Under the pieces are notes generated by a model. That model saw only the letters and a list, made by a program, of their open reading frames with translations, did not search any database and had not been told where the DNA came from. This document shows, one piece after another, positions 1 to 61,254 of a stretch of DNA of 64,000 bases. The translations under genes and the position numbers were made by a program. Numbering within the stretch: position 1 is the first letter of the stretch; every line of letters begins with the position of its first letter. The stretch is from positions 1 to 64,000 of the forward strand of contig JAMKCH010072306.1 of the NCBI GenBank assembly GCA_023653785.1, given 5' to 3'. This DNA comes from Ophioderma brevispina (taxonomy: Eukaryota; Echinodermata; Ophiuroidea; Amphilepidida; Ophiodermatidae).

Positions 1-2830
1 TATCTTAAATTTTATACACATAGATGTAAATTTCAAAAAAGGTAAATCCCAGCTTTCAGGGTTTCCTAAATTGAAAATTAAAACTGAGTTCAGAATTACT
101 CAAACGAATGATAAGCTGAACAAACATTTAAAGAAATTTTTCCTTCAATGTTGGTAACGAAATTTTGGTGGTATGGTTGTAATTGCAAACTTAGTAGAGT
201 AGTTGTGGCACGTGCTTCTTGGTAAATGTATTATTGTAATTTGTGCTTGTTCACCGTGCTTTTGTTTTTGTTTTATGTGTGACATGTTTTGTGTTTCCTG
301 AAGATTTCGTAAAAGGCGAGCCACTCGGTAATATGATTCTGATTTCGCTGGCACGTTATGTGCCTTACATATCGTCGCCCACATCACATACTGTCTTATC
401 TGACGAAATGCCGTTTTCGAGAAAATCGCCATTGAAATTCTACCGGAAGATTTCATGTTTGTACTATGGAATAAAACATTATAATTTACTTTTTAATTTT
501 GAATTATGAAGAACACATTCTGAAGTTTAAGTTTTAACCTTGCTGAGTTTTGAAAGTGCAATTGTATTCCTGATATAAAGCTACAAAGTCATAAGTCTGT
601 ATGTGTAACGCCAAAATGTCGTATTTTCACATACGACGCTAATTTCACCGTTATATTTCAATGCGTTCAGATAGATCTCTATGTGGAACACGTCATGTTC
701 ACGCAAGATACGATGATACGATGCACATAAATCTGTTATGTGAAAAGCGTAAACAGCTTGCGAATGAAACATACGACAGTATGTGAAATCGCGATATGCA
801 GTTTTGAGCTTATTGATCAAAATTCTTAATTAATATCTCACTAATTAGATCACTTTCAAGATTGTAACTTTGTGCAGGTATAGACCATAACACTATACGT
901 TCATATGCAAATATCTCAAAAAAGTAAAATAAATGTCAGATAAGACAGTATATGATGTGGGTGACGATGCTGCCTGGCTTTCCTTGTTTCGCCTCATTGT
1001 GATTCTTGAGATGTTTGTTCTTTGTGCGAGGGAAAAACTTCCTTATTTTTAGGGCAAACATGGATAAGGACAGTGATGGAAATATATCTAGCTATCAGTT
1101 ACAGCTATATATCAGCTAACAGAAGAGTCATGTGTGATCTATAAGGCAAGGTTTTCAAGAAGAAAAATCTGTAACCAAAAAGGGCATAACTTATGCATAG
1201 GATTTCACAGAGATATCTATGGGGAATACTTCCGTATTACTCTCATCTTAATATAATAAAATAATCCTTTTTAATTTGAAATCCCCAAAGAAATCCCCAA
1301 AGAGGACTAATGGCGGATTTTAGGTACCGCCATTCTATAGGGAATTCTCAGTATTGTTGTACAAATCAGTGTATACAAATTTTGCGGGTCACGTCTTCTT
1401 AAAATTGACCAGGATTATAAATTACACTTCATTGGTATTATGAATGAACAAAGCCATGTAGACTCAGGGGTAAGTGTTTTGATTGATAAATTTTTGGGAA
1501 TAAGGGAGAAAAATAAGACGATGATGATACGAGGATGATGAAAACTTAATCATAGGGATCGTGCCTCAAGACCGGGCACTCGCATTTAAAACGATATATT
1601 AACGTGAACATGGTGAATGTTGGGTTTTTCAACGATTGTTCTGCCACCACACAGATTATTTCTTGTACTTTGAACCTTCACAACACAGAGAAGAAAGAAA
1701 AAAAAAAGAAAAAAGTTCAGAAGATGGATAGATATAAAGTGTGAAGATTGGTTTGACAATTATGTCAACAGTACAAGGATCATGTATGTTTTGGATAAAT
1801 GCGATAAAAATTTGGATTAACAAATTCACAATCGAATAACCACCATGTCAGAACAGGCCTGAAGAGATCTTAAAAAGGAAGTAAAGAAAATAGAGCATGC
1901 GTGCGATTAAATACTGGGCTAGCCAAATATGTGAGCGAAGATGGAAATCAAGTGTAACCCTAAGGCTACGCACATGACTATAGTTGCTCAGATTTCAACA
2001 TTGTAACATCTATATAAATGTACTCAATATCGTTGACATAATGTGAATTTTACAGGCTTTGTCTGTCTGGTCCTGAGGGAATTGGCATTGGTTAACAAAA
2101 TGAAATATGCCAGATAAGTAGACACCACACCAGCTCATAGTGGGGGGGGGGGGGGGGGGGAGGGTAGGACACGATCGTGCTTGATTGGGCATTGGGGATT
2201 TCCCAAACGGTAATTTTGGGGAACTGTTACATGCATTACTATAGCAGTCTATGTGTCAGTTATAACACAAATTCTCCTTTTAAACATTAGTTCGATACAT
2301 TCTTTAGTAATTTCATGATAATTTTGGGATAAATTATTGACATTCAAAATCTGTCGGGGTTAGTGGATTAACCCAAAACTCACATATGGACAGTTTTACA
2401 CACATTGACAGTGTTCCCAGACTATCTCGCACCCGGAAGTTGATGGCGTTTTTGAATTCGCTGTTGCTGTTGGATTGGCATGTCCTAACCCCCTTTTATG
2501 TCTATTCACAACAACGCAAAGGGGGCGCACCACTAATAGTTCCGACAAAAATAGCGTAATACCTACTTCTATGGTAATACTAAGATACTTACTCTTGCCT
2601 TTTTAAGCTTTTTTAAAACAATGCGCCAACATTTTTAGAGAGGCGATATCTTGTCAACTATTTTGGAATTAGAAGTAAAATTAGTGGTTACCAATTGAAG
2701 TTGTGAATATTCTTTTCTGCATTGATAATAATATAGGAAAACGGCAGATTTTTTTTTTAAAAAACCAAATCGTAGGAACTAACCATACCTTTCAGGTGAA
2801 GTATCGTAATATTGTGCTTCATTTTTAAAT
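1..2830. other. No recognisable gene or element
   Basis: AT-rich sequence with only short open frames, none showing a recognisable motif or splice-bounded structure. I found no inverted or direct repeat of note on either strand except a poly-G run near 2.15 kb. It is probably intergenic or intronic DNA. Confidence 0.5.
2142..2160 (+). repeat. Poly-G run of 19
   Basis: An uninterrupted run of 19 G residues. Comparable G or C runs recur in this window (near 4,945, 9,516, 10,447, 11,011, 14,523 and 16,364), mostly inside or beside small mobile elements. Their exact lengths are likely to be unreliable in long-read data. Confidence 0.9.
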
Positions 2831-5348
2831 TTGGCCCGAATTATGCTCCGAAGCATATGGTCCAGAGCAGAATTTTATACCTCGGAGACAAGAAACTTTG
2901 ATGACGCGTACTTCCTGGGTTGTAAAAGGGCCAAGCTATCAATCAGCGCATATTGCGGTGTGATCGGAACGGGTGACCCAGCACATCAGATCACTTTGGT
3001 GGCCATCAGAGGCAAGTGCATTTTTCCGCAGAGAACAGGAGTAGCGCGCCCGTCAAAGGGTTTTCTTGGTCGCCCGACTAATGTTCTGGAGCAATAAAAA
3101 TCTGGAAAAATATCCTGTCAAATATGCTCCTGGAGCATATTGGTATGTACAATGCTCAAGGAGCAAAGTGCAAATGTGGGTCCTGTAGGGATGGAGGAAC
3201 TCTGTTTTGTCATACTCGCATGCTCCCGGGCATGCATGTGCATTCAATTCGGCGTAGAATATTTCTCCAGATGATTTGTTCCAGGACCCTATCGCACTGT
3301 ACCTGTATCGTTTCCAGAGTGGCACAAGTGTTTGTCAATGAACTCTGCTAGCTGTCACAATCTGCCGATCTAACTTGAAGTTCATTCATTAGGAACTGAA
3401 TATTTGAAAGGTACACTAAATATCATTCACAATTGCTGGGCATGCCAATATTAACAACACCAACACCCCCCGCCAATTTGCATTGGATGAAAATCTCATG
3501 GACTATGAAAGCTGAGGCAACACTAAGGCAGAGAATCTATTCGGCATCTGATCGGGGTTTATTCCCGTCCAAGGCTGCAGAATTCGTAGGGGAGGGGCCC
3601 TATGGCACTCTTTCCGAATTAAAAAGGGATTGCATGTTGTGAGGAGTTGGATTTCCTCATGATTTTGGCAAATATCTTGTGTTGGCCTGCCGTACGTCAC
3701 GGGTTGAAGACCAGCATACCCGTGTGCTTTATTCCGTTATTTGCGTTAAAACGAGCTTTATTCCGTCGTGAGTTTTAGGTGTCAATGGACGTCACGGTGG
3801 CCCAAATAAGACATCCTGTGGAATGTTGGTCCTTAGCATGCTCAGTAGGCCTCTAGTCGTAAGCTTCACTATAATGTAAAAATAGATCTATAGCTTTAAA
3901 AAACCAAAAATCAAATTTATCACTATCACCGGCAAAGACCCCCCCCCCCATTCTTTTGAAAAAAAATTTTAGGGTTTTTGGGTGGGGTGTTTTTATGACT
4001 TTTTAGAAGATTTGTAAATTGTAGTTTTTCAACAAGACCCCATTTTGGGTGAAAATTTTGCAAATTCTTGCCCCAAATAATCCCGATGTATTTGTGGGAA
4101 GTTGGGAAAGACATAAGTATTGTGCACCAAACCCTATGAGTTCATATTAAACTTCCCCGAAACCTTCTTTGCTAACTTTCATTCAATTCACAGCGCCAAG
4201 TCTGGGGGCCGCTTTCACACCCGACAACCCCGAACCCAAACCCAAAGTTGAGTGACCCCAGGTGTGTTGGCCCCCTAAGTTCTATAGTGGCTACTTTCCA
4301 CATGCTGCCCTATGAAATTTTTTTGATATTTCCATAATTTCAGTATTTTTTATTGCCACATTAACTTGGTCCTTTCTAGTTATTCTAGCAATGGGGATTT
4401 CCTATCCATCAATAAGCAACTCTTCTAGCAGCCCTTCACACGTCTCATGAATTTTGGCAGCTTGTTATATACTAGTCTCAACCCATGGCACAGTTCAAAC
4501 GCTTCATCACTACTGTAATTTTCAAATTTAAATCTGCTGCAGGTATGAGTCATGAAACCCAGATGCAAAGGTCAGTTCATGTTATCATACGGGTACACAA
4601 GGAGGTCGTTGTAAGTGTGCCCCTGGAATGATGCTATATTGTAGGCTGTTATGTACACAATTAGCAATCAAGGTTACAGATAAACAACACCATTGTATTC
4701 AGTATGGAGTAATGACCTCTGACTGTTTTGGCATTACAGTTCACTACATGTGGATGGAGGACGGGTTTTTAATTTACAATGAAACATAATTGCAAACTTC
4801 AAAATTGCTTGCTTTCGGTCTTTTAGTAATTAATTGCTTTCCATGTTTTGGGTATCAACACTGTCACTAATTTTCCTTAAACTCAACCCATTTCCAGGCA
4901 GAGAGCAAATCCCAAATACATTAACTTATGGCTCCAACCAGGGTAGGGGGGGGGGGGTAAGTGCACTAATGCATCCATTTGCAACTTCAACATCACATGG
5001 GGTAGAGATTTGTGGAAATATTCATTTTTTTTTGTCCATAACAAAAATCTATTGAAATTTTTCAATCACAATCCTAACCACAATATACTCACAACTGCTT
5101 TTTTTAAACCAATAATTCAATTTTACTTCAATTGGTAGCCAGAAATGGACCAAATTAGTCTTTAAAAAAATCCATGTTTTACTTGTATTTTTAACGTTTG
5201 CCTCACCTTCCTATTCCTACAACAAAGATGAACCTTAACACAACTTCGTGGCAATGGATCCTATCACACTGCAATGCGGGGTGGGCGGAAGGGTCAGTTT
5301 CAAAAACTCATGCATACAATCGGGCAGCTCCAGTTTATTGTTCCTCTG
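2831..5348. other. No recognisable gene; scattered homopolymers
   Basis: Short open frames occur on both strands (up to about 90 codons near 2.8-3.35 kb) but they overlap each other on opposite strands and show no known motif. C-runs near 3,939 and G-runs near 4,945 interrupt the sequence. I see no repeat structure that explains the stretch. Confidence 0.45.
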
Positions 5349-9560: not shown

Positions 9561-10435
9561 ATCAACACAGAACATTAAATTAGGACACCATTGAGATTGC
9601 CTTGTTTTTGCCACGCGATGAAATTATTATATGAGAATCCGGTTCGCATATCAGGGCTAAGCTAAGTGCATAAGGTCTTCTGCACTCCCGTTGGTGCATA
9701 AGGGGGTCCAATTGGAACCCAATCCCCGAAAACCACTTTGCCGTTGAATTTCTTTTACCAAAACTCTGTGCCATTTTGGACCACATAACAGAAAAAAAAA
9801 TGAAAATCGGTGAAGCTATTCAAAATGGCGGCCCAAAAACTGATTTTTACAATGCGCACCAAATTCTCCCGCCACAAAATGAAAAAAAGAAACCTTTCCC
9901 GAAGGACTTTTTCCATAAAATTTGGCTCATAATAGTAGGACATCAATACAATTACATTGCTGAAATAAAAATTTAAAAATTCCAGTACGATTTAATGGGC
10001 AAAACACATTTTGGGAAGCGCCCCCAAAATGTTTTTTATGCTAATGAGTATAAAATATTATGACCGATTTGATTTTTTTTTCACCAAAATATGTGCAACT
10101 GATATTTAGTCAAGATCATAAAATCTGGGGCAAAAATAATTTAGCGTTAAAACATGGCGCGCTAAAAGGATTAAAGGCATAGCCCGCTAATATTTGCCAG
10201 TATCACACGGGTAATATAATCGCGATAATAAATAGATTGTGGAAGATGCAAACAATATTAAGAAAGGGTTTCAATAACGATTTTTTTAAGAAGAAGAAAG
10301 AAAATTTAAAGACCAATAAGGTGGGTATATTAAAATAGGTGTAGCGAAAACGATGGAGAGGCTTTGGCTATATGATTGAATACATGATGACTATATAATG
10401 AATTCCATTAGCCCCGGAATATTTTAAAGGTTTAA

Positions 10436-11071
10436 CCCTCGTCTTACCAAGGGAGGGGGGGGGGGGGGTTACCACCCCCCCCTAGTGAACTTCGCTCCGG
10501 TGCGCTAAAATGCTAAAAACTTTCGTAAAAAGCTTCTAGGTAATCGTTCTTTCATCCTTTCCGGTCATTTTAGCGAAAAAAATGTGAAGGTAGCACCTTC
10601 ACCAGGGTTATGGTATGCCGTCAAAGTCGAAGGGTAGGGGGGGTGGTTGCCACCCAAGGATATTTTATGGTGCATTTTTGAAAATATTATGCACAGTATG
10701 GCTCTAAAACTCTATGTTTATGTAAAACTAGCCAAATGCCATCATTTAGAACTGAAAACCGCATGAAAATCCAATATTCCTTATTTGTATTTTTATATTT
10801 TTTAGCGCAAAATTGGATTTTCGCCTATTTTCGGTCGAAAATGCCAATTTTGCCGACTCGCGGACTTGATGACGTCATTGTGACGCCATACTAGGTATGT
10901 TGGTAATTATTTTGGTATCAATGGAAAGAGGGGGACCATAGCTATCCATTGGTATCAAAATCATAAGCATCGGGTGCTTTATAACAAATTCTCGAGGGGG
11001 GGTGGTAACAACCCCCCCCCCCCCCCCCCTTGGTAAACCGTGTTACAAAAAAAGGCTTGGTAAGACGAGGG
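10436..11071. mobile_element. TTAA-type element, CCCTCGTC family, complete copy
   Basis: A clean TTAA (10,432-10,435) precedes CCCTCGTCTTACCAAGG, and CTTGGTAAGACGAGGG is followed by a second TTAA (11,072-11,075). This is the pattern expected of piggyBac-type integration: an exact TTAA duplication and ends starting CCC. Immediately inside both ends are G or C runs that form short hairpins with TTACCA or TTACCC loops. The body includes a GACGTCATTGTGACGCC block. Relative to the copies at 13,976 and 15,817 it is inverted. There is no transposase; 636 bp is typical of a non-autonomous derivative. The link to piggyBac is inferred from the ends and target alone. Confidence 0.75.
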
Positions 11072-11248
11072 TTAAGAAAAGACGCTCAATCCGTATGAAA
11101 AGGTTATTTCAAATCCATTTCCGTGGGCTAAATTGTTGAAAATAACCAAATGATAATGCCAGTACCTTTATTACCTTCTGCATAATTTGTAATTGATGAT
11201 AAATTTGCAGCTTATGTTGGAAGTTTGGGATTATCTAACCATTAAAAG

Positions 11249-12387: not shown

Positions 12388-13211
12388 ATTTATATCCTCA
12401 TTCATGGTAGTACTAACCCATCGGTACGATTTTGTTTAACGATTTGACGCTAACTCTAATGGCATATATTCATTTTGAAACAGCATCCGAATCTTGAATC
12501 TACAAGTTAATGGCTTGCAATATTTTTTTTTGTTTACTGACATGTTTCCCCACCCATTGTTAAGATCGCGTATTTACCACTAGGTTTACCCTATCTTACC
12601 TAGTAGGTATGGTTATTACCCGAGGGGTGTTTTGAATCAATCCCATGATGCATAGCAATGTGCCTATACTGTACTCTACAAAACAGATGTCATTACTTAG
12701 GGATAAAAAGTGTTCCAAAAGTTTAAGAACCACAAGACATTTCATAATCATGCTAAAAATTCCCTAGGTACTAACACTTTGTGGACTAAAATGAGGGTTT
12801 TTATGTGTTAAGAAAAGGATTTTCATGGGATCGCATGACCCTATTGAGGTGAAATTTCCCCAAACTGGTGCATTGTGGGATTGACTCAAAACACCCTCTG
12901 GTTATTACGCAATGGACCTTCATTGGAATCATTGAATCTAATTCGTTTGAATTAAACAAAAAACAATTATATGATATTTCAAATAAACAACATAGCAAAC
13001 CTACTACAAACTTAAAGATTAAAAATTATAATAATGAAATAACCCCAAATCACATTACTAAATTCTTTGGAATCCTGATTGATGACGATTTATCTTGAAA
13101 ATTCCACACAATTCATGTGTCAAAAATGGCCAAATCGTGAACTGAGAATTACAAGGGTATAACTGACATCTTGGTCATTTTGAGATAGGTTCACAATAAA
13201 CTAATATAATA

Positions 13212-13352
13212 AACATATTTTACCGGAAGATGGACCTTTAAGCAAATTTACATTTTGAAAAACTAATCAAATTCTATATCATTTTAAAGCTAATAGCAAG
13301 TGTAAATTAAAAAAAAATAATTATCTCACAAAAACCCAAAATGTCAGTTAGA
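13212..13352 (-). repeat. Dispersed repeat B, copy 2, inside the RT fragment
   Basis: On the minus strand this reads TTCTAACTGACATTTTGGGT, then TTTGTGAGATAA, then TTTACACTTGCTATTAG and AAAATGATATAGAATTTG. That is the same block order as at 8,990-9,115. It sits between recognisable RT segments, so it is a later insertion into the retrotransposon relic. The copy at 15,051-15,191 is its duplicate in the second tandem unit. Confidence 0.5.
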
Positions 13353-13571
13353 ACCTCAAGAAATTCAATGAAATTAACCGCAAAATTCGTCCTTCCATAG
13401 CCCAGAAATCTCTTTGCATACTCTCCCTATTTTAGTAATATTGTGCAATCATTGGACAGGTAACAACACAAATCTTGATTATCTTTCCGAAAATAAAATG
13501 CTTATCAAAATCTCTACTGACCCCATTTGGCTTGCCAACATTGATCCTCTTTTTAAATTTCGACATTTCTA

Positions 13572-13606
13572 TATAGGTCATTGATTAAAAAAATCAATGA
13601 CCTATA
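13572..13606. repeat. Perfect 15-bp-arm hairpin inside the RT relic
   Basis: TATAGGTCATTGATT is followed after five A by its exact inverse AATCAATGACCTATA. Removing one arm restores a more typical RT reading (INDLYTLQLASF after KFRHF), so the arm looks like a small inverted duplication within the decayed coding region. The same structure recurs at 15,411-15,445. Confidence 0.7.
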
Positions 13607-13975
13607 TACTCTTCAGCTAGCTTCATTTATTTTCCAATATCACCATTAAATGCTATCACCAAACCTATTACAAGATAATTTTTTCATCGTTAATGCAGCC
13701 ATTCATCACTATAGCTAGGGGTGGGCAAATAAACACCTTTTCTTCAAATCTCTATTTAGACCAGTAGATTCTATGGCAATTTGGGCTACTTAAATAAATC
13801 TGGCAAGCATTTTGATTCGCAACTGAATGTTCGACCTGTTCCCAAATCTGGCAAGCATTTTGATCGCAACTGAATTTTTGACCTGGTTCCCAAATCTGGC
13901 AAGCATTTTGATCGCAACTGAATTTTTGACCTGATTCCGTGGATTTTAAATTTTGCATGTGAAGTCGTTGGTTAA

Positions 13976-14563
13976 CCCTCGTCTTACCAAGCCCTTTTTG
14001 TAACACGGTTTACCAAGGGGGGGGGGTTACCACCCCCTCGAGAATTCGTTATAAAGCACCCGATGCTTATGATTTTGATACCAGTGGATAGCTATAGTCC
14101 TTCTCTTTCCATTGATACCAAAATAAGTACCACATACCTAGTATGGCGTCACAATGACGTCATCAAGTCCACGAGTCGGCAAAATTGGCATTTTCCACAG
14201 AAAATAGGCGAAAATCAAATTTCGCGCTAAAAAACGTAGGAATATCGGATTTTCGTGCGGTTTTCAGCTCTAAATGATGGCAATTGGCTAGTTTTACATA
14301 AACATATAGTTTTAGAGCCATACTTTGCATACTATTTTCAAAAATGCACTATAAAATATCCTTGGGTGGCAACCACCCCAACCCTTCGACTTTAAAGGTA
14401 CCGGTGAAGGTGGTACCTTCACATTTTTTTCGCTAAAATGACCAAAAAGGATGAGAGAACGATTACCTAGAAGCTTTTTACGAAAGTTTTTGGCATTTTA
14501 GGGCACCGGAGCGAAGTTCACTGGGGGGGGGGGGGGGGTAACCACCCCTTGGTAAGACGAGGG
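13976..14563. mobile_element. TTAA-type element, CCCTCGTC family, in duplication unit 1
   Basis: TTAA at 13,972-13,975 precedes CCCTCGTCTTACCAAG, and CTTGGTAAGACGAGGG is followed by TTAC, one base off TTAA. Both ends carry a G run that can pair with a nearby C run across a TTACCA loop. Internal landmarks are TATGGCGTCACAATGACGTC, GGATTTTCGTGCGGTTTTC and a GGTACCTTCAC block. At 588 bp it has no coding capacity. It is inverted relative to the copy at 10,436. The piggyBac-like assignment is inferred. Confidence 0.7.
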
Positions 14564-14782
14564 TTACATTTGGCAATTTTAAATATTACTTCAAAAAGCA
14601 GTGTTCTTGTTCCCAAACTATTATCAGACACACAAACACAGATGCTTTTGTATACTGTATAAATAATGACGAAAGCAAAATATAATACTATTTCCGGGTA
14701 AACCGGGGGGGGGGTCCCAAAGGCAATCTTAACAAGTACCTTTAACTCTTATTCTATCATTATTCTATCTTCCTATCTCATG

Positions 14783-15574
14783 CGTTTGAATTAAACAAAA
14801 AACAATTATATGATATTTCAAATAAACAACATAGCAAACCTACTACAAACTTAAAGATTAAAAATTATAATAATGAAATAACCCCAAATCACATTACTAA
14901 ATTCTTTGGAATCCTGATTGATGACGATTTATCTTGAAAATTCCACACAATTCATGTGTCAAAAATGGCCAAATCGTGAACTGAGAATTACAAGGGTATA
15001 ACTGACATCTTGGTCATTTTGAGATAGGTTCACAATAAACTAATATAATAAACATATTTTACCGGAAGATGGACCTTTAAGCAAATTTACATTTTGAAAA
15101 ACTAATCAAATTCTATATCATTTTAAAGCTAATAGCAAGTGTAAATTAAAAAAAAATAATTATCTCACAAAAACCCAAAATGTCAGTTAGAACCTCAAGA
15201 AATTCAATGAAATTAACCGCAAAATTCGTCCTTCCATAGCCCAGAAATCTCTTTGCATACTCTCCCTATTTTAGTAATATTGTGCAATCATTGGACAGGT
15301 AACAACACAAATCTTGATTATCTTTCCGAAAATAAAATGCTTATCAAAATCTCTACTGACCCCATTTGGCTTGCCAACATTGATCCTCTTTTTAAATTTC
15401 GACATTTCTATATAGGTCATTGATTAAAAAAATCAATGACCTATATACTCTTCAGCTAGCTTCATTTATTTTCCAATATCACCATTAAATGCTATCACCA
15501 AACCTATTACAAGATAATTTTTTCATCGTTAATGCAGCCATTCATCACTATAGCTAGGGGTGGGCAAATAAACA
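14783..15574 (+). pseudogene. Non-LTR retrotransposon RT C-terminal fragment (dead), copy 2
   Basis: This is the duplicate of the relic at 12,944-13,735 with identical disruptions: the stop after the DDDLS box, the inserted repeat B and the internal hairpin. The upstream flank differs here (it follows the end of unit 1), so the few residues before ELNKKQ are not RT. The shared breaks show that the relic was already dead before the tandem duplication. Confidence 0.7.
15051..15191 (-). repeat. Dispersed repeat B, copy 3
   Basis: This is the duplicate of the copy at 13,212-13,352, carried by the second tandem unit and identical by eye. It is not an independent insertion. Confidence 0.5.
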
Positions 15575-15816
15575 CCTTTTCTTCAAATCTCTATTTAGAC
15601 CAGTAGATTCTATGGCAATTTGGGCTACTTAAATAAATCTGGCAAGCATTTTGATTCGCAACTGAATGTTCGACCTGTTCCCAAATCTGGCAAGCATTTT
15701 GATCGCAACTGAATTTTTTGACCTGGTTCCCAAATCTGGCAAGCATTTTGATCGCAACTGAATTTTTTGACCTGATTCCGTGGATTTTAAATTTTGCATG
15801 TGAAGTCGTTGGTTAA

Positions 15817-16404
15817 CCCTCGTCTTACCAAGCCCTTTTTGTAACACGGTTTACCAAGGGGGGGGGGTTACCACCCCCTCGAGAATTCGTTATAAAGCAC
15901 CCGATGCTTATGATTTTGATACCAGTGGATAGCTATAGTCCTTCTCTTTCCATTGATACCAAAATAAGTACCACATACCTAGTATGGCGTCACAATGACG
16001 TCATCAAGTCCACGAGTCGGCAAAATTGGCATTTTCCACAGAAAATAGGCGAAAATCAAATTTCGCGCTAAAAAACGTAGGAATATCGGATTTTCGTGCG
16101 GTTTTCAGCTCTAAATGATGGCAATTGGCTAGTTTTACATAAACATATAGTTTTAGAGCCATACTTTGCATACTATTTTCAAAAATGCACTATAAAATAT
16201 CCTTGGGTGGCAACCACCCCAACCCTTCGACTTTAAAGGTACCGGTGAAGGTGGTACCTTCACATTTTTTTCGCTAAAATGACCAAAAAGGATGAGAGAA
16301 CGATTACCTAGAAGCTTTTTACGAAAGTTTTTGGCATTTTAGGGCACCGGAGCGAAGTTCACTGGGGGGGGGGGGGGGGTAACCACCCCTTGGTAAGACG
16401 AGGG
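15817..16404. mobile_element. TTAA-type element, CCCTCGTC family, in duplication unit 2
   Basis: This element is the tandem-duplication copy of that at 13,976-14,563, with TTAA before CCCTCGTC and TTAC after GACGAGGG. It was duplicated passively with its host unit, because flanks and element are identical in the two units. It therefore does not count as an independent insertion. Confidence 0.7.
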
Positions 16405-17393
16405 TTACATTTGGCAATTTTAAATATTACTTCAAAAAGCAGTGTTCTTGTTCCCAAACTATTATCAGACACACAAACACAGATGCTTTTGTATACTGTA
16501 TAAATAATGACGAAAGCAAAATATAATACTATTTCCGGGTAAACCGGGGGGGGGGTCCCAAAGGCAATCTTAACAAGTACCTTTAACTCTTATTCTATCA
16601 TTATTCTATCTTCCTATCTCATGCGTTTAATTTAATTCTAAAATTAAGTAATAATTTAAATTTTCAAATTCTTTTGCATCAATTGGCGCCATCTTAATAC
16701 TTCATCCTTTGCATTATTTCCCATTAGAAAATTATTCAAAAATCCAATTCTACGTTCAATTCCACTTGCTCAAAGCATTTTCCACATTTCCTTGAGGGAT
16801 CTATTTACCACCCACGAAACGAAACACAGAGCAAATGCAAAATTGTTATCAAGATAACGATGCATATCTGCAAGGAGTTGGACCCATTTAGTTTTCAATT
16901 CTAAATTTGAATGGTGTTCCAATTATTTATAATGAATTCCACTTTCTATTTTTTCCATCCTATAATGTTTCTTCTAATATTCCAATTTTATTCCAAATGT
17001 GTGTGCACTCGGCAACAGGTGATATTTACTAAGCCGCTGAAGTTCTCTCCCCTCAGCAATTTGCCAAAGATGGTAACAATCCAATTGATATGGTTCACTT
17101 TGTACTTATAAAAGTTCCAAGTAATGCCTTTTTTTGGGATATAAAATATCTTTATCATAATGACTCCAAACCTGACTTCCAAATATAAGCCAATTAAGAT
17201 CAATAATTTACTAGCCCTTACCTGACTCAATATTCCATCAATTTGTTATCAAATTGGAGACACTGTCTTATCTCCTTGGCGGCAAAGAGTTAAGAGTTTG
17301 GTACCATTAGCAACCTTGTGTTTTTCTCATCTCATCTGTAAACTATTTTGACTGATTTCTTTCCCATTATGATTCTACAGGCTAAAATATGGT

Positions 17394-25068: not shown

Positions 25069-25084
25069 TTACGCGGCAAGTTAA

Positions 25085-26382
25085 AGGTGATCATCATTGC
25101 TCGGACGGCATATATTAAGCTATATACCAATGGAAAGCTTATTTTATCGCGATTTTATATGTAACGGTGTCATATTTATGCTACTCTTGGTTACAAGAGC
25201 CAAAATGAAAATCGTCTTTCAAGCAACACCACTTCAGCGAAAGTCAATATTATTGACTTGGGCGCTGTGAGGTGGTGACGTCACCGATTGTAATCGTCTG
25301 TGCAAGTAAACAAAATCCCATTCGCTTGTATCGCTCGCTTCTGCGCGTTCGAAGACTTACCATTGTTTTCTCTAAAATTTGCTCAACTAAATCAGAATTA
25401 TGAACAATACAGATACAGATAACTATCTGTTGAAGTATCTGGTAGATTTGATGGCTCTATCCCACAGAGAAGGCGGTTCAGTCGACATCTTATATATACT
25501 GAATTCCTTGCTTCACAGTATTGCTGCAATTTGTTATGGTTAATGGTTAACAAATTGTCGCTAGTTAAAGTAATTACCGCCATGTTACGCTCGATGAGCC
25601 AAGACTTTACCGGAAACCCAATGGCAAAGCCAACAGTGATTTATTAAAAAAGGTTCAATAACCATAATTGAGTGACTGTTTCCCGGTCTGAGAAAAGTAG
25701 ATTAAGATATTTTCCGTTACTCCCCCTGATAGCGCCTATACCTCATGCAATTCCATCGGTTAGCATAAGAGGGTGTAACGTATATCAATGGAAGAGCCAA
25801 GTCTTTATACGCAGGGGCAGGTCTCCCTCACTAACCTCAAAGGGCAGCTATTTATTTTTCATGCTCCAGTAGCATGAGTGGTGGTCAAAATCTCACACTT
25901 TCATGTAAACACAGCCGGCCTCTGAGCTCTGCTCGCTACTCAATTAGATTCATCGTAAGTGATGAGAATTCAAGCGATTTTTTTACATTTCTTGCACACT
26001 TATGAAGCCGGAATTATAATTACCAATCTACAGAGATCAAGGAACCTAGTCAACCAACATTTATCGCTATATTGGCGAAATTCAACACAGGAAAGAGGAG
26101 CGATTTGGGGTTCCTTTACATTGGAAGCTATTGGAAGATGCATTGCGCAACAAGACTTGTGCAATCGCCTACGTCACACGAATTTGCCAAGGTCAGAGAA
26201 GGAAAGCTTAAGCGTATTTTTTGGGCGTAAAATCGCAACGAAAAATAGGGTTAGTTTTTGGTTTATAGCGGCTATACTATACGATTATTATTTTTTTTAA
26301 AAGATATTTTGGCAACCTGAAGTCATAAGCTTTCCATTGGTATATAGCTTAATATATGCCGTCCGAGCAATGAGGATCACCT
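25085..26382. mobile_element. Inner TIR element (AGGTGATC ends), probable TTAA target
   Basis: The left end AGGTGATCATCATTGCTCGG continues ACGGCATATATTAAGCTATA and TACCAATGGAAAGCTT. The right end is the inverse with a few differences. TTAA precedes the left end (25,081-25,084) and TTAC follows the right end, one base from a TTAA duplication. The element is about 1.3 kb with about 58 bp TIRs. It contains open frames up to 113 codons near 25,959-26,300, but with no transposase signature (no DDD/DDE context recognisable). It joins the TTAA-flanked families elsewhere in the window. Confidence 0.6.
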
Positions 26383-26529
26383 TTACGTTTTGTTTCTGCA
26401 CAAAGATGTTAGGTCACAGTCTGCCAAACAACTTTCTTTCATGATTTTTTGTTCATCTGTTTTTCCTTTTCGGAAAAATGATAAAATATACGGTCCAAGT
26501 TAATTGAACGCACAGTAGAAGCGTAAGGT

Positions 26530-27352: not shown

Positions 27353-28061
27353 CACTTAATTGGTCACAGACTCCAAGGGATCCGCAAACTACATTTTGCC
27401 AGTTTTACGACTAACGATATATTTCTTCCGACTCATATTTTTGTATTTGTGTAACTTTTGGATACGCATCTTTTCATGACAAAAAATATTAAAATCTATT
27501 TCCCCGTTTATTAGATAATTAGGTTGGGTGCCTAGTACCCCCCCCCCCGTAAAAATATAAAACATGTAATTAAGACTATTTTTTCTATTTAAGTATTTAT
27601 ATATTCATGTAATTAAACAATAAACAATAATAATACAAAACTCAGTTAACCCTTTATATGCTGATAGCGATCACTTTGATTTTGTTATATCTCCATCACG
27701 CCACTGTACAAACCAATGGGAAAGTTACACGACAGACAATGCCACCTACCAAAAAATAATTTGTGTTCAGCACAGGTAGATTGTACCATCTAGAACACAT
27801 ATTAAAAACTTTTTCATCGCACATATATATTTTGTGGAAACGAGTCCGTGTTAATTTGTATTCACCTTTTTTCCGGATTTGAAAATGTTTTCCCCCTAAT
27901 TTTAAGGTTTCTTTGTCGAGTTCTAATTTGAATGCTTAATTGTTGTGTGGTATAAATTTCGTGCAAAAATTCCTCGGGAAAGTGGTTTCCATGGAGTGGT
28001 GGGTTCGAGGTCAATCCCCTTGTCCACCAACGGAAGTAGGAAATCCTTGTCCACTTAAGTG
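27353..28061. mobile_element. TTAA element of the CACTTAAGTGGACAAGG family, interrupted copy
   Basis: TTAA (27,349-27,352) precedes CACTTAATTGGTCACAG, and CCTTGTCCACTTAAGTG is followed by TTAA (28,062-28,065), so ends and target duplication are both present. The body (AGTTTTACGACTAACGATAT, GTGTAACTTTTGGATACGCA, CCCCGTTTATTAGATAATTA, ACCAACGGAAGTAGG) matches the copy ending at 50,742. Relative to that copy, about 460 bp (roughly 27,552-28,014) is inserted beside a C run. There is no coding capacity. This copy defines the true ends of the family. Confidence 0.75.
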
Positions 28062-28069
28062 TTAATGTC

Positions 28070-46818: not shown

Positions 46819-48220
46819 TATGCCTATAGGGAAAGATTTTGTTCTACTCACTTCCATTTTGTTGTTCTTCTTGTTGTTGTTTTCTTCATTACTTTTCTAT
46901 TATCCCAAAGGTATCAATTACCAAATAGCTCCAAATGAAACCATTAAGACACTGTTTTAAATTTTAATGGATCAATCAGACATTAAAGCCCTATTGAAGG
47001 TTTATTTCCTGCACTAAATATATAATTAACGAGGGTGCAGTAAGCAAGCTTGGTAGAGGTACGGAAAACACACTTGACATGTGTATCAGAACCAGGTAAA
47101 GCAGACAAACTTAAATAGCCCTTATCAAATTCACGCTACAGGCGACAATGCCAGTGTTTAATAAATCATAAATATGTACAAAAGTTGTAAACAACATACT
47201 GATTATTGAGGGGGCCATCGCGTATTTGGTTATCCAAAATAACATAACAAAAATTGAAGAACACAATTACGTCGGCTTTAGGTCGGCTAATTGTGCTTAT
47301 ATTTATATTAAAAAAAGCACTGAAATCCCTATTTTAAAATTAAGCGCGAAACATTTCTTTTTATATAGTAGCAGTTTTCTTACCTTTTCCTTTTCTTACT
47401 AGCCGTGTTCCGTCGTTCCAAACAAGATATTGTTTACGTTATAAGGGCTTATCAGGGCATTATAATAGCAATACCAGTAGAGATATGGTGCTGATCGGTT
47501 GGTGTTGAGATAGCGATCACCCTCCTGTTTGAAACAAACCCGCTTTTCCAATGATGGGATGTGTTTTTAGGAAGATGGGATCTTAACGGGTCTCATCGCT
47601 CTCGTTTATCTATCTCCACTTCTACAAGTCAAAGACATGTTTTAAGATTGCAACCTATAGCCTCACATGCGAGTACCGATTTGGATCCAGCAAGCATCTA
47701 CATGTATTATCAAAACTACTTACCACATTGTTTTCTTGCAAAACTTTCAATCTACGGGGTTTCCAAAAAAAGGTGTGCAAGCAGATAAACTTCAATTTCA
47801 CAAACAACTCTGCAACCTTGGTATTTCATCTTTATAGGACACACTCATATTATCTTTGTGTATAATCAGAACAAATGCCATGCTAATCCAACCACGCAAA
47901 CTAAAGATATATACGATTATTAAAGACTATCTGTTTTTCACCCATTCCAATGGGATTTACACAGTTAGTGATTATCGATACATCGTGGCTCAATCGTGTA
48001 ATTTGAGTAAATAATAAACTCAGAACCTGAAGGTAATATAATACTAAATTAATACAGTATCTGAACAACAAAAAATACATAATTTTCCTCAACGATAACC
48101 TTTAAGCTGACAATACACAAGGGTTTGCCTGTTGAAATGTGTATTGTCGGGGATAATACGTGTAAATGAAACAGAAAGAAATGGATGTTTATGAAAGTTT
48201 AGATTCAAGCATACTGTTAG
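46819..48220 (+). repeat. Long dispersed duplication, copy 1 (interrupted on its right)
   Basis: About 1.4 kb that recurs in direct orientation at 59,679-61,072. Shared landmarks in order: TATGCCTATAGGGAAAGATT, CTATTATCCCAAAGGTATC, CCTGCACTAAATATATAATT, ACGTCGGCTTTAGGTCGGCT, GATGGGATGTGTTTTTAGGA, TTTCCAAAAA, GATTTACACAGTTAGTGATT and TGTCGGGGATA. Copies differ by small indels and substitutions. The matching sequence continues after the nested insertions, at 50,747-50,815 (GACAGGTGTGATCC, GCTTAGTTCAATGAA), against 61,073-61,140. So this copy was split by about 2.5 kb of insertions. Confidence 0.85.
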
Positions 48221-48227
48221 CACTTAA

Positions 48228-48816
48228 AGCCGCTAACAGCGATTTCTTCAAAATGTAAACAAATCGCGCTCTCTATTTTTCATCAAAGTCCATTTTTTGC
48301 ACTGTTGTATTGAAAATTCTACTCTCTTAATTCCTTAGATTTTTTAAGTCTTGAAGACTGTTATTAGTGACAAAAATTTTTGGACTTAAAAATTTAAATC
48401 CGTGCAAAAGTCTTATTTAAATTAAGTCCTTTTGGTTTGAAAATAAACCTTTAAATGTGTTTAAAACTGTATATAAACCCAGATTTATTTTTTGAATCTA
48501 AAGGAATTGTTTTAAGTCCCAAGAGTTTTTGTCACTAATATCAGTCTGCTTAGACTTAAAAGTAAATCTAGGGAATTTAGAGAGTAGTAAAGACTCATGT
48601 AAGTGGCTGAGCATAACACGCCGTATTTGTCAAGAAATGATGATTTTTATGCTTTGTTTATTAATAAAATTCGGGATCCGATTTTTTTAGGTCCATAAAT
48701 TGCATCTGCAAGTGTTTTCACAAAGAACAGTAATATAAGGTTCTGATATGACCTAACATTAGCTATTTAGAGACAAAATGGGCATTTTTAATTTAAAAAA
48801 ATGACTGATTGTGGCT
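48228..48816. mobile_element. TTAA element J (AGCCGCTAACAGCGATTT ends)
   Basis: The left end AGCCGCTAACAGCGATTTC follows TTAA (48,224-48,227). The right end, read inverted, is AGCCACAATCAGTCATTT before TTAA (48,817-48,820). The ends are similar rather than identical. They also resemble those of the element at 52,245 (AGGGATTAGCAGCGAT). It carries a nested hairpin element at 48,319-48,587. Its right end is duplicated in tandem (48,880-49,009), giving a second J-end/TTAA junction into which another element inserted. Confidence 0.55.
48319..48587. mobile_element. 269 bp hairpin element with about 70 bp arms
   Basis: CTACTCTCTTAATTCCTTAG at the left is mirrored by CTAGGGAATTTAGAGAGTAG at the right. 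Pairing continues inward through TTTTTTAAGTCTTGAAGACTG, ATTAGTGACAAAAA and GGACTTAAA blocks, leaving a short AT-rich centre with further TTAAGTCC/GGACTTAA words. Nearly the whole transcript would fold into one stem. There is no coding capacity. It looks like a MITE of the long-hairpin kind, a type known in some species to give rise to small RNAs. Confidence 0.75.
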
Positions 48817-49009
48817 TTAAGTGGACAAGGGGGTTTCTAGGGTTTTAAGGTCTAGAGACAGTTATAAATGGCATCTGCAAGATCGCTTTAAAATGCTTAA
48901 GAGTTTTCACAAAGAACAGTAATATAAGGTGATGATATGACCTAACAATAGCTATTTAGAGACAAAATGGACATTTTTAATTTGAAAAAAAAAATGACTG
49001 ATTGTTGCT
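48690..49009. repeat. Short tandem duplication of the J right end
   Basis: GCATCTGCAAG, TTTTCACAAAGAACAGTAAT, GATATGACCTAACA, TAGCTATTTAGAGACAAAAT and AATGACTGATTGTGGCTTTAA occur at 48,693-48,820 and again at 48,871-49,013. The first copy runs straight on into GTGGACAAGGGGGTTTCTAG. The second is separated from the corresponding GTGGGCAAGATGGTTCCTAG by the element at 49,014-50,512. Confidence 0.85.
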
Positions 49010-49013
49010 TTAA

Positions 49014-50512
49014 AGCGGCACTGGCACATTTTCACAAAATATGAACTTTCTTCAATTTGCTCTCAAATGATAGTCTTGGCCATTGGTCAGAAATACCTTT
49101 CAAACACAAATAAATGAGCCTTGTGCACGAGTGATCTAAATTTTATATAATAAAACAGTGTTAATGATCTTTAATTGATTTGGTTCAAGAATTTGGTATG
49201 TCCAAACAACATTACATAGTAAGATTACACACAATTTATAAGATGTATACTTAATTGTAAACAAGAATGTCCACTAATGTCCACAAGAAGCTTTGCAGTT
49301 CAACGATGATATGTCCTCACAGCGAAGACTCCAAAATGACAGCGCATAAGTTCACATTAAGCTCCTCAGGTAATATATTCCATGGGAATCTTCTGAGACT
49401 TGAAGGTAATTTTGTCCAGCAGTTCAAGACGACAAGGTTTTCCCTCGACGACACTAATATTCTACAGTAAGAAAATCCAGGTATTTTACCACCATCAGTC
49501 TGCCGCAAATGTCCTCATTTAGGACCACAAACTGGAATCCCTATTTGATTCCAAAACTGAAGCTCTTCTGGCTTAAAAGACGACAGCAGACAGTTCATCA
49601 GCTATCAAGCTCCGTTGGCATCCAAAGTTATTATAAATCCTGGCACTATGTACAACATAAATCTACCATTATTGTAGATTAAAACTAGCTATAACTATAC
49701 TGTATATAGCTCCAGATTACAAAAGCTGGCGAATCAAAACTTTTGCAACTCAACTTTATACCATTTTTTCACTAAGTGCCAAGTCTTAAAATAGATCTTA
49801 CCACAGCATCATGCATATATAAACATAACCTTACACTAGTTGACCAATTGGAATTCACATAAATTACATTATCTGAATTACATCACTTCACATATATAAC
49901 TCTATGGGGGAATCCCCAGATCATGCAATGTTTTGATCTTAAAGCATAAACAAGTTGACTCAGTTTCTAAGTTTACATCTTGGGGAATTCCCATTTCCCT
50001 TATTGTGCAATCTATCTAACAGGTGCACCTTGCACAAACAACACTAGAGGGGAATCCCCTGCTCTCTTTTTTATCATAAGCAAAGTACTTTTCCCATGAG
50101 AAATCTTTTCTCAAATAAAATTGAGAAAATAATATTTTAATCAAAATTTTGAGGGTAATATAACACCATAACTTTAATCAACAAATGTGTATATTGCATG
50201 AATATTTTTGACTCGTACTCACTGATATTAAACCCACAAAGCTTATAGACTGATCAAGCAGTGTGCATAGCGTGGGGAACATGCATACGGCGTGCGTGTT
50301 CTTGTGTTAAACGCCATTTTCGTCGTCTGCTGAATTTAACGTCGCCGGCGACGTTAAATTATAAAATCGTTATGTTTACCCATAAGGAAGCTGATTTGGT
50401 CTTAATCATTTCGGGTGAGGGCTTTTGTATATAAAAGCCTTACAACCATGCAAAAATGTCGATTTTGAAAAATCTTGAGGGCGCACTATTTTTCAAATGT
50501 GCCAGTGTCTCT
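49014..50512. mobile_element. 1.5 kb TTAA element L (AGCGGCACTGGCACATTTT ends)
   Basis: TTAA (49,010-49,013) is followed by AGCGGCACTGGCACATTTTC, and the right end AAATGTGCCAGTGTCTCT is followed by TTAA (50,513-50,516). The tandem neighbour at 48,817-48,820 shows the same flanks joined by a single TTAA, which proves insertion with TTAA duplication. The body contains a 28 bp perfect palindrome at 50,333-50,360 but no transposase. Short open frames (up to 67 codons at 49,267-49,470) are not recognisable. This is a non-autonomous element, and a piggyBac-like mobilising enzyme is an inference. Confidence 0.8.
50333..50360. repeat. Perfect 28-bp palindrome
   Basis: The 14-base half AATTTAACGTCGCC is followed immediately by its exact inverse, with CCGG at the centre. 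There is no loop. It lies inside element L, about 150 bp from its right end. Confidence 0.95.
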
Positions 50513-50869
50513 TTAAGTGGGCAAGATGGTTCCTAGGGAGCCCAACCTGTAATTTGCTAATTTTAGGACTAATGATATAATTTTTCCGCCCCTTTTTTTT
50601 TATATTTGTGTAACTTTTGGAAACGCATCTGCTCATGAAAAAAATATTAAAATCCATCGCCCCGTTAATTAGATAATTACTTCGGGTCCCTAGAGCCCCC
50701 TTGTCCATCAACGGAAGTTGGAAGACCTTGTCAACTTATGTGTTAAATATTGAAATTAATTGAAAAATGACAGGTGTGATCCTCCTAGCTTAGTTCAATG
50801 AATAGAATCTAATGTTCTTCTAATTGTGTTATTTATAATGAAACCTTCACAAAGAAGAGAAAAGTCAAG

Positions 50870-52240: not shown

Positions 52241-52244
52241 TTAA

Positions 52245-52789
52245 AGGGATTAGCAGCGATATTGCGAGAGAATCGAAAAATGTGGAAATGCATTTGTTTT
52301 AACTTATAAATCGGGGATAAGTGTGTACAATTCCATATAACTGCTTTAATGCAGAAACAAACCACCAAATAGTGAAAAAATGAAGTATTTGAGGAAATAT
52401 GTCATACCGTCTCCCGCAAATAGACATACAGCGATGACGTCTCAAAATCTACAACAAACAGCTGATTGTGGTTTACACTAGCACAGAATAAACAAAGATC
52501 AATAATGTTTGTGTTTGAGGTCAAACTGTATTGATCATGGTGCACAATATCACGCTTAAAATCTGGATATTCACCAAGAAAGGCTTTTTGATCTCAAGTC
52601 GGAATTTTGATACGCGCATATAGAAATTAAAGAATCACATAAAAAGTACTGCATTGTTTTTAATACACGGATTTCAAGTCAACCACTTGCAGGTTATGTT
52701 TGCATATCCATGCCAGTAACAAAAATACAAAAATATGAATTTTGATGATTTTTTCGATGTTTCGGATAAGCAAATCGCTGCTAATCCCT
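52245..52789. mobile_element. 545 bp TTAA element (AGGGATTAGCAGCGAT ends)
   Basis: TTAA (52,241-52,244) is followed by AGGGATTAGCAGCGAT, and the right end ATCGCTGCTAATCCCT is followed by TTAA (52,790-52,793). The 16 bp ends are perfectly inverted and the target duplication is exact. Matching extends inward imperfectly through an ATCGAAAAA block. There is no coding capacity. The ends resemble those of element J (AGCCGCTAACAGCGAT), suggesting a related group. Confidence 0.8.
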
Positions 52790-52996
52790 TTAAAACAGAT
52801 TAAACCGCTCAAAGGTGTTAAATTCGATTTATATCAGTCCGACGTAGAGTGAGCAGGGTGCTATAAATGAAATACATCGTCGTCTGAGTGTAACAAAGTC
52901 GTATAAGTCAGAGAGAACGTCCATGTGACCGTACAGTTGAGTATAATATACACATTTTTTTGCAGAAAATGATAGATTAGGGTGTGTAGAATAAGA

Positions 52997-54036
52997 ATCT
53001 GCCGGGTGCCACTTAGGCATCCTTGGGCATTTTGAGAAATCCAAGATGGCGTCGCCATAAATGATAATTATCTATTCAACCCTATATTATCAAACTGAGG
53101 AGTTAATAGATATACTATAGGACCCAATGAACAAGTGTATGGCACTTGTAACATTAAGTCATACTTCAAATTCAAAATGGAAGCGAAATCCAATAATTGT
53201 AAAATATGCCCTATAACAGCAAATACGTGAGATAAATAATAGACATGAAGTACTTAGATTATGTTGTTAGACACAATAAATGTATTTCTGATACTTGCAA
53301 CATGATCTCAATCAATATGGCAGCCAAAAACGTGAACATCTTCAAAAAATACTTGACACAAATTTATAAGTATTACAGCCTTCAAATCGAAATCAATGTG
53401 TCAATGACATTAGATATGTACCTTTGATCTAAACCAATGTAAAACATACACTTTAATTTGTTTTAAATGCGCCAAAATAAAAATAAAACTTATACGGTGC
53501 AAAGTTGTCAAAATACCATAGGAATTACATTTTTTCACATATATTGCACTCAATTTATAATTTGACACATTTTTATTTATCGGGATTACCTGGTATCACT
53601 TAGTTATGATCATAGGTACATTTCTACTTGTTTCATTGACACAATAATTTATACGTGAAGGTAATATTCAGAAATTTGTGTCAAGTATTTTTGAAGATAT
53701 TCACGTTTTTGGCTGCCATATTGATTGACGTCATGTTACAGCCTTAAAAGTATCAGAAATACATTTATTGTGTCTACCAACATAATCCAAGTACTTCATG
53801 ATTATTTTTTTTTTATCGCAGGTATTTGCTGTTATAGGGCATATTTTAAAATTATTAGATTTGGCTTCCATTTTGAATTTGAAGTATGACTCAATGTTAC
53901 AAGTGCCATGCATATTATTATATCTATTAACTTCATAGTTTGATAATATAGGGTTGAATAGATAATTATCATTTATGGCGGCGCCATCTTGGATCTCTCA
54001 AAATGCCCAAGGATGCCCAGGTGGCACCCGGCAGAT
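52997..54036. repeat. 1.04 kb near-complete imperfect palindrome
   Basis: The left arm starts ATCTGCCGGGTGCCAC and the right arm ends GTGGCACCCGGCAGAT. Pairing runs inward through TTGGGCATTTTGAGA, ATCCAAGATGGCG, ATAATTATCTATTCAACCCT, CAAATTCAAAATGGAAGC, AAATATGCCCTATAACAGCA, ACACAATAAATGTATTTCTG, ATGGCAGCCAAAAACGTGA and CTTGACACAAATTT to about the midpoint near 53,517. Both arms carry small differences, so they have diverged since formation. There is no coding capacity and no clear target duplication. It abuts a reverse transcriptase fragment and replaces its downstream part. Confidence 0.85.
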
Positions 54037-59675: not shown

Positions 59676-59678
59676 TTG

Positions 59679-61140
59679 TATGCCTATAGGGAAAGATTAT
59701 GTTCTACTCACTTGCATTTTCTTGTTCTTGTTGTTGTTGTTTTCATAATTACTTTTCTATTATCCCAAAGGTATCTATTACCAAATAGCTCCAAATGAAA
59801 CCATTAAGACACTGTTTTAAATTTTAATGGATCAATCAGAAATGAAAGCCCTATTGAAGGTTTATTTCCTGCACTAAATATATAATTAACAAGGGTGCAG
59901 TAAGCAAGCTTGGTAGAGGTGCGGATAACACACTTGACATGTGTATTAGAACCAGGTAAAGTAGACAAACTGAAATGGCCCTTATCAAATTCACGCTACA
60001 GGCGACAATGCCAGTGTTTAATAAATCATAAATATGTACAAAAGTTGTAAACAACATACTGATTATTGAGGGTGGGGGGTAAGGATAATAAAAAGGCAAT
60101 TGCGTATATCGCTGTGGTTATCCAAAATAACAAAAATTGAAGAACATAATTACGTCGGCTTTAGGTCGGCTAATTGTGCCTATTTATATTTAAAAAAGCA
60201 CTGAAATCCATATTTTAAAATTAAGCGCGAAACATTTCTTTTTATATAGTAGCAGTCTTCTTACCTTTTCCTTTTCTTACTAGCCGTGTTGCGTTGTTGC
60301 AAACAAGAAATTTGTTTACGTTTTAAGGGCATATCAGGGCATTATAACATCAGTTTAATACCAGGATAGATATAGTGTTGATCGTATGGTGTTGAGATAG
60401 CGATCACCCTCCAGTTTGAAACAAACCCGCTTTTCCAATGATGGGATGTGTTTTTAGGAAGATGGGATCTTAATGGGTCTCACCGCTTTCGTTTATCTAC
60501 ACTATTCTATCTCCACTTCTACACGTCAAAGACATGTTTTAAGATAACATGTAGCCTATAGCTATGTGAGTACCTATTTTGATCCAGCAAACATCTCTTA
60601 TCAAAACTACTTATGACATTGTTTTCTTGCAAAACTTGCAATCTACAGGGTTTCCAAAAATAGGTGTGCAAGCAGATAAACTTCATTTTCACAAACAACC
60701 CTGCAACCTTGGTATTTCATCTTTATAGGACACATTAATGTTATCTTTGCATATAATCAGTACAAATGCTTGCTAATCCAACCACGCAAACCAGAGACAA
60801 AACAATTTAATATTATCTGTTTTCTCCCATTTCAATGGGATTTACACAGTTAGTGATTATTGGTACATCAGAGTTGAAGGTGATATGCGACTAAGTTATT
60901 ACAGTACTGTATCTGAACAAAAATATTACATTTAACAATAATAACTTTTAAGCTGATAATACACGTTCTAAAGGGTTTATCCGTGAAATGTGCATTGTCG
61001 GGGATAGAGCTTGCAAATAGGATAGAAAGCAATGGGTGTTTATAAAAGATAAGATTTAAGCATTACTGTTAAAATCGTTAAATTAATCAATCAATAAATG
61101 ACAGACGTGATGCTCTAAGCTTAGTTCAATGAAAACTAGA
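59679..61140 (+). repeat. Long dispersed duplication, copy 2 (uninterrupted)
   Basis: This matches 46,819-48,220 and then, without a break, 50,747-50,815. At the point where the other copy holds the nested elements, this copy reads ACTGTTAAAATCG, so TTAA at 61,069-61,072 is the pre-insertion target. The distant repeat member at 34,030 matches part of it (59,830-60,010). Open frames in the two copies do not correspond, so the segment is non-coding. Confidence 0.85.
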
Positions 61141-61254
61141 ATTTCGCGGTTCTCGGCTTTGGCGATTTGCGGTGGGGGTACCAAGGTTAAGGCTGTTAGG
61201 TTCCGTTCGGAACCTTATCAGACGTGACCTGTAGTATTAGTAAACTTTTGTAAC

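Follow-up and report, generated by a model that had tools for sequence, protein, structure and literature searches.

In the ophiuroid Ophioderma brevispina, positions 1 to 64,000 of contig JAMKCH010072306.1 (assembly GCA_023653785.1), the stretch analyzed here and called the window, carry at 48,217-50,746 an insert that is very probably a nested pile of short, non-coding and non-autonomous elements of the miniature inverted-repeat transposable element (MITE) type, accumulated in one member of a host repeat, R, and built of elements with two classes of ends that both use TTAA. The outer element, K, looks piggyBac-like at its ends, and the two elements found within it, J and L, would be of Kolobok type; a hairpin repeat, H, lies in J and another repeat, M, in L. 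In the assembly (2.51 Gb, 65,844 contigs) the window is contig C59495. The parts of the pile and their counterparts elsewhere in the window are as follows.

46819-48220, plus strand: host repeat R, copy A, left part, 83.5% identical to 59678-61071; ends in TTAG (48217-48220), the decayed left TTAA
48221-48227, plus strand: K in the pile, outer seven bases of the left tip, CAC and the internal TTAA (48224-48227), matching the consensus tip CACTTAAGTGGACAAGG
48228-48816, plus strand: J, a TTAA-flanked, non-autonomous AG-tip element in the internal TTAA of K, holding H; tips AGCCGCTAACAG and AGCCACAATCAG, each beside TTAA
48322-48584, no strand assigned: H, a near-palindromic, self-complementary hairpin repeat in J, flanked by TA
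48817-48842, plus strand: first copy of the K tip after J, TTAAGTGGACAAGGGGGTTTCTAGGG, an exact match to the K tip interior AAGTGGACAAGG
48899-49013, plus strand: second copy of the J right end, ending in TTAA 49010-49013; a tandem duplication of J end and K tip, 91.3% identical to 48710-48820
49014-49084, plus strand: L, left part, an AG-tip element with terminal inverted repeat AGCGGCACTGGCACATTT, starting after the TTAA of the second J end
49085-50165, plus strand: M, an abundant repeat with TG...CA ends, inside L
50166-50512, plus strand: L, right part, 96% identical to the copy at locus L026; adjoins TTAA 50513-50516
50517-50742, plus strand: K in the pile, remainder, from the inner left tip to the right tip, 80.8% identical to 27372-27542 and 88% to 28016-28065
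50743-50808, plus strand: R, copy A, right part, 77.6% identical to 61067-61142; begins with the right TTAA (50743-50746)
27353-28061, plus strand: independent long copy of K, 709 bp, between TTAA 27349-27352 and TTAA 28062-28065
59679-61142, plus strand: R, copy B, with an uninterrupted (empty) TTAA at 61069-61072

The host repeat and its empty site

When the window is aligned with itself, 46818-48219 matches 59678-61071 over 1462 columns, and the similarity is picked up again at 50741-50808 versus 61067-61142. The break coincides with TTAA 61069-61072 of the 60 kb copy and corresponds to a gap of about 2.5 kb in the 46.8 kb copy, where TTAG (48217-48220) is followed by the insert (48221-50742) and then by TTAA (50743-50746). 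R at 46.8 kb is thus broken exactly at TTAA, and the copy at 59.7 kb is unbroken there. This is what the initial annotation had described when it took the two segments to be colinear except at this tetranucleotide; it would have yielded to a break placed elsewhere, and the alignment puts the break at the TTAA.

A search of the genome with 60500-61160 as a query gave 1091 first-look candidates, from which 40 loci were scored, two being the window's own copies. The TTAA site (query 570-573) is crossed in a single alignment by 32 of the 38 others, and the remaining six stop short of it, at query 373-518; an alignment end at the TTAA (572) is seen among the 40 loci only in the 46.8 kb copy. One more unbroken copy (66% over 576 columns) lies in L040, a locus fetched for another purpose. 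Most genome copies have in common the part corresponding to 60644-61135, and the two copies in the window share about 0.97 kb further to the left; these two may represent either a longer variant of R or copies related by duplication. Both belong to an interspersed repeat family, and so the empty site is paralogous. The earlier idea that the stack has its own empty site 12 kb away therefore holds as far as the site is unbroken, but what is seen there is another member of R.

Two classes of ends on one tetranucleotide

Using the 709-bp copy of K as a query, 2765 first-look candidates were obtained, and the 40 loci scored contained 45 matches. A consensus was built from 24 of 30 fetched copies, six being dropped as partial or duplicate. 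It reads TTAA-CACTTAAGTGGACAAGG(G)nTTCCTAGGGACCC... at the left end and, inwards from the right end, TTAA-CACTTAAGTGGACAAGGTCTTCCTACTTCCGTTGGTGGACAAGG(G)nTCCATGGACCC..., so that the inverted repeat is 17 bp long, inside the published 12-19 bp range, with CACT at its tip. K tips were located without use of the flanking letters, and TTAA precedes them exactly in 22 of 34 cases, with one mismatch in six and with two or more in six (loci L002-L030). These flanks, together with the empty sites, agree with the TTAA target duplication of the piggyBac superfamily. G-rich palindromes, similar to each other though not identical, are centred 29.5 bp from the left tip and 53.5 bp from the right tip of the consensus, an unequal spacing as in piggyBac, whose ends hold identical palindromes at asymmetric positions (PMC11707139). 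K looks like an old non-autonomous element with a piggyBac-type layout at its ends. At about 233 bp, the copy in the pile is a short form of the 709-bp one; the likeness of the insert's ends to those at 27,353-28,061, pointed out in the initial annotation, is real, but the two copies differ greatly in length. It is to be noted that a second TTAA sits 3 bp inside the K tip (CAC-TTAA-GTGG), which is palindromic, CACTTAAGTG (TTAACACTTAAGTG).

J begins at 48228, directly after this internal TTAA of K (48224-48227), as had been proposed. J and L end in AG...CT beside TTAA, and the same is seen at L026 and L010. TTAA duplications and 5'-RR/YY-3' termini are given for Kolobok, as distinct from piggyBac, in PMC9587614, and AG ends are shown by the ten full-length Kolobok elements of Xenopus listed in PMC6004289. 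The 5'-AG...CT-3' ends of J and L conform to that signature, and this favors Kolobok over piggyBac for them; TTAA duplication is likewise indicated by counts over AG tips. In the sampled loci, exact TTAA stands at 27 of 51 matches to seven AG-tip patterns (J, L and relatives) with four or fewer mismatches, and at 26 of 29 with two or fewer, nine of the 29 being in this window and L027 having the same flank as L026; three of the AG-tip families were first noticed by a scan with TTAA in its pattern, so the count leans towards TTAA.

The initial annotation placed one element, called L, at the duplicated TTAA. L does start there, at 49014, but what had been taken as one element is a component of about 0.53 kb with the unrelated 1.08-kb M inside it. 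A search with L gave 14384 first-look candidates, and in the 40 scored, 39 loci other than the window match only about positions 72-1162 of the query, namely M. Copies of L without M are found at L026, L027 and L009, the first of which is about 0.53 kb long with TTAA on both sides.

LTR (long terminal repeat) retrotransposons have TG...CA ends and a target duplication of 4-6 bp. M has the properties of a solo LTR in this respect, as its ends are TGTTATGACG...ATAACA and an exact 4-bp flank duplication is present in 12 of 23 measurable copies and absent from 11. A 5-bp duplication was dropped, being exact in eight of the 23. When L is compared with L026, the left join lacks the first ~26 bp of M and ~110 bp of L, and the simplest reading would be insertion followed by a small deletion. 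The M family (the window copy and L032-L060) is very abundant, about 1.1 kb long and LTR-like. The left flank AATTC is common to five of the 23 measurable copies, which perhaps belong to a larger composite.

As for the hairpin, the J search (5041 first-look candidates) gave 38 of 40 scored loci that match the H part alone. Besides the window, one locus matches J outside H, L066 on contig C38551, and it holds H at the same place; H was therefore most probably acquired by an ancestor of J. The initial annotation was right to put a hairpin inside J, but its entry after J is not borne out. The 2-bp flanks of H agree with each other in all nine distinct loci, as TA in five and as TT, TG, AT and AA in one each, and a direct duplication can be told from an inverted one in the TT, TG and AA cases only. 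Copies of the H family with agreeing flanks are those of the window, L067, L068 and L070-L076; L069 was dropped for having the same flanks as L067, and L066, too diverged and with flanks that disagree, was set aside. Tc1/mariner elements duplicate TA only. A TA-duplicating Tc1/mariner hairpin was considered for H and ruled out by the non-TA flanks at four of the nine loci.

Order of events and rival explanations

How could such a pile be formed? The sequence shows that K entered a TTAA of R first, and that J, probably with H already inside, then entered the TTAA 3 bp inside the K tip. The right end of J and the K tip were next duplicated in tandem, and L, a second AG-tip element, entered the TTAA of the duplicated join. 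M entered L at some time, with a small deletion at its left join. The movements were presumably of the cut-and-paste kind, driven by trans-acting transposases: a piggyBac-type enzyme in the case of K, and Kolobok-type enzymes in that of J and L. The succession of K, J, duplication and L is read from the interruption of one part by another. The J end is indeed tandemly duplicated, as had been noticed, with 5.4% substitutions between 48710-48820 and 48899-49013; the K tip follows the first J end at 48817-48842, and after the second it lies beyond L, from 50513. Three TTAA-using families in a readable succession had been proposed from the start, and this survives for K, J and L but not for the place given to H. 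With two classes of enzymes that both need TTAA, piles are easily formed, because every insertion comes to be bordered by TTAA on either side and the K tip adds another.

Some points weigh against this reconstruction. TTAA had been expected beside genome copies of these ends, and 12 of the 34 K tips are without exact TTAA. For J, the copies seen are that of the window and that in L066, whose right tip is beside TTAA and whose left tip is beside CTTA. The K tip is CACT and not CC[C/T]T. Bat piggyBat also seems to start with CACT. The K in the pile is at distances of 0.176 and 0.197 (its two parts) from the consensus, beyond the 0.053-0.157 of all 23 sampled copies, so it may belong to an older or separate short subfamily. 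Order by divergence is not decisive and gives no proof of the layering, M being 4.1% from its consensus and L also 4.1% from its nearest sampled copy. We infer the Kolobok type of J and L from their ends and their use of TTAA. As for the ends of K, CC[C/T]T is named, along with 12-19 bp inverted repeats, as a hallmark of piggyBac MITEs in PMC2872659, and K is therefore not filed as a proven piggyBac member; furthermore, the right end of piggyBat is without such a palindrome in the account of PMC11707139, so not every member of the superfamily has that asymmetry.

The transposase search belongs to the same side of the balance. The profile PF13843 (DDE_Tnp_1_7) gave 451 first-look candidates and 116 scored matches in the genome. 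A piggyBac-type transposase with ends matching one of the families had been suggested as a target, and none was met in the five loci examined: no tip of K, or of a window family with CCCTCG tips, lies in the limited flanks of these five of the 116, and no J or L tip lies near the three piggyBac-transposase loci tested for them. TTAA-flanked inverted-repeat pairs around the transposase occur at one of the five, L063; the 12 pairs listed for it are weak, and A-rich for the most part. The same locus has, at 2390-4537, an open piggyBac-type transposase frame of 715 amino acids.

The initial annotation thought of a piggyBac-like mechanism throughout, and a single piggyBac-type system that moved K, J and L would suit the use of TTAA by all three, the PF13843 transposases in the genome and a further family of the window (10432-11075) with a canonical CCCT tip. 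However, the tips differ, being AG in J and L, CA in K and CC in the CCCTCG family, and the AG tips of J-type, T2-type and related elements (roughly AGNNNCTANCAGYGATTT) are alike among themselves and unlike K. The division by end letters set out in PMC9587614 also places J and L with Kolobok. A common system for the three is thus unlikely, and the piggyBac comparison can be kept, in part, for the layout of K.

Another explanation is that AG-tip elements land preferentially in the palindromic K tip, TTAACACTTAAGTG, and that piles therefore form more often there. At L023 an AG-tip element (TTAAAGTCTGACTCAGAGATTT) does occupy the corresponding inner TTAA of another K copy. Yet by a rough hand estimate about 0.2 such cases would be expected by chance (from ~12 AG-tip insertions, ~2200 TTAA in 248 kb sampled and 35 K tips outside the window), the one case seen is not significant, and the window itself was picked for its pile. 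We regard a landing preference as improbable. In the L023 pile (about 2126-2475) the AG-tip element lies in the inner TTAA beside a doubled K start; long runs of C and of T are close by, and an assembly artefact is possible there.

Once inserted, the K tip offers a pair of TTAA separated by 3 bp, with a perfect 10-bp palindrome centred on one of the two, and the K start is doubled beside an AG-tip element in both piles seen, that of the window and that of L023. It is tempting to imagine that the K tip serves as a landing pad for repeated Kolobok-type insertion, and that duplication of the join is triggered where the ends of two TTAA systems abut, but we would give this speculation little credit. 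Finally, that part of the structure comes from repeats wrongly joined in assembly is hardly credible: the assembly is in 65,844 contigs, L023 has long runs of C and of T where its own K start is duplicated, and the same hairpin with its flanks appears in opposite orientation on two contigs (L067 and L069), but most borders in the window, though not the left M join, coincide with the end of a family next to the target letters proper to it, and J ends 5.4% apart are not expected from recent mis-assembly of one sequence.

The nested pile of two TTAA end-classes is, in kind, an ordinary one for a MITE-rich genome, and is unusually well documented. In nested MITE insertions, elements lie inside elements and the order is readable from interruption. 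The present case is alike in both respects, and differs from them in that two classes of end signatures share one tetranucleotide and their borders coincide. It offers a clean natural record of two such classes on one target, with the empty site examined in many copies from the genome, and a simple way of testing if one TTAA system seeds or disturbs another. It also warns against identifying piggyBac by TTAA use alone; in other respects the pile is as expected of a MITE-rich genome.

Related systems and other elements of the window

No paper title was found that names the K, J or L families, which does not show that they are undescribed. With coral CMITEs (PMC2872659) K shares TTAA duplication, inverted repeats of 12-19 bp and a non-coding nature, and an empty site and tandem copies are reported there as well. 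With piggyBac it shares the asymmetric palindromes near the ends (PMC11707139). It differs from piggyBac MITEs in its CACT tip and in having no matching transposase among the five loci examined. J, L and an element at 52.2 kb resemble the Kolobok T2-MITEs of Xenopus in TTAA duplication and AG...CT ends, and the tips of J (AGCCRC) and L (AGMGRC) are unlike the T2-MITE motif AGGRR as it is stated in PMC6004289.

This 52.2 kb element (52241-52793) has AG tips beside TTAA, is 545 bp long and carries perfect ends of 12 bp, AGGGATTAGCAG; it is also present at L010, L013 and L044; L010 holds a full copy (91%). Its tip at 52,245 fits AGGRR as written in the same source.

Pfam gave one match, under the family cut-off, for ten open frames in the window, of which two lie in the pile, and Rfam gave no match on the window at gathering score. 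Inverted repeats flanked by TTAA number nine in the window, and those flanked by 13 other tetranucleotides range from 0 to 17; this count was left unused as evidence because simple-sequence pairs seem to swamp it.

The CCCTCG family is represented at 10432-11075, with relatives at 13964-14566 and 15805-16407. This family, too, uses TTAA, and its tip, CCCTCGTCTTACCAAG, is of the canonical piggyBac type, with CCCT beside TTAA. Its layout is like that of K, with a G-run near one tip and a spacer followed by a repeat of the tip at the other, and a clear palindrome is seen on one end only. At 12936-16635, two tandem copies of 1.86 kb (99.7%) hold an element of this family and are either a recent duplication or an assembly duplicate. 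A 61-bp inverted repeat (98%) surrounds ~1.2 kb at 25082-26385, with a frame of 113 amino acids that has no Pfam match at E 0.1. The 1.04-kb stretch at 52997-54036 is an inverted repeat of itself (78.6%), with tips CTGCCGGGTGCCAC.

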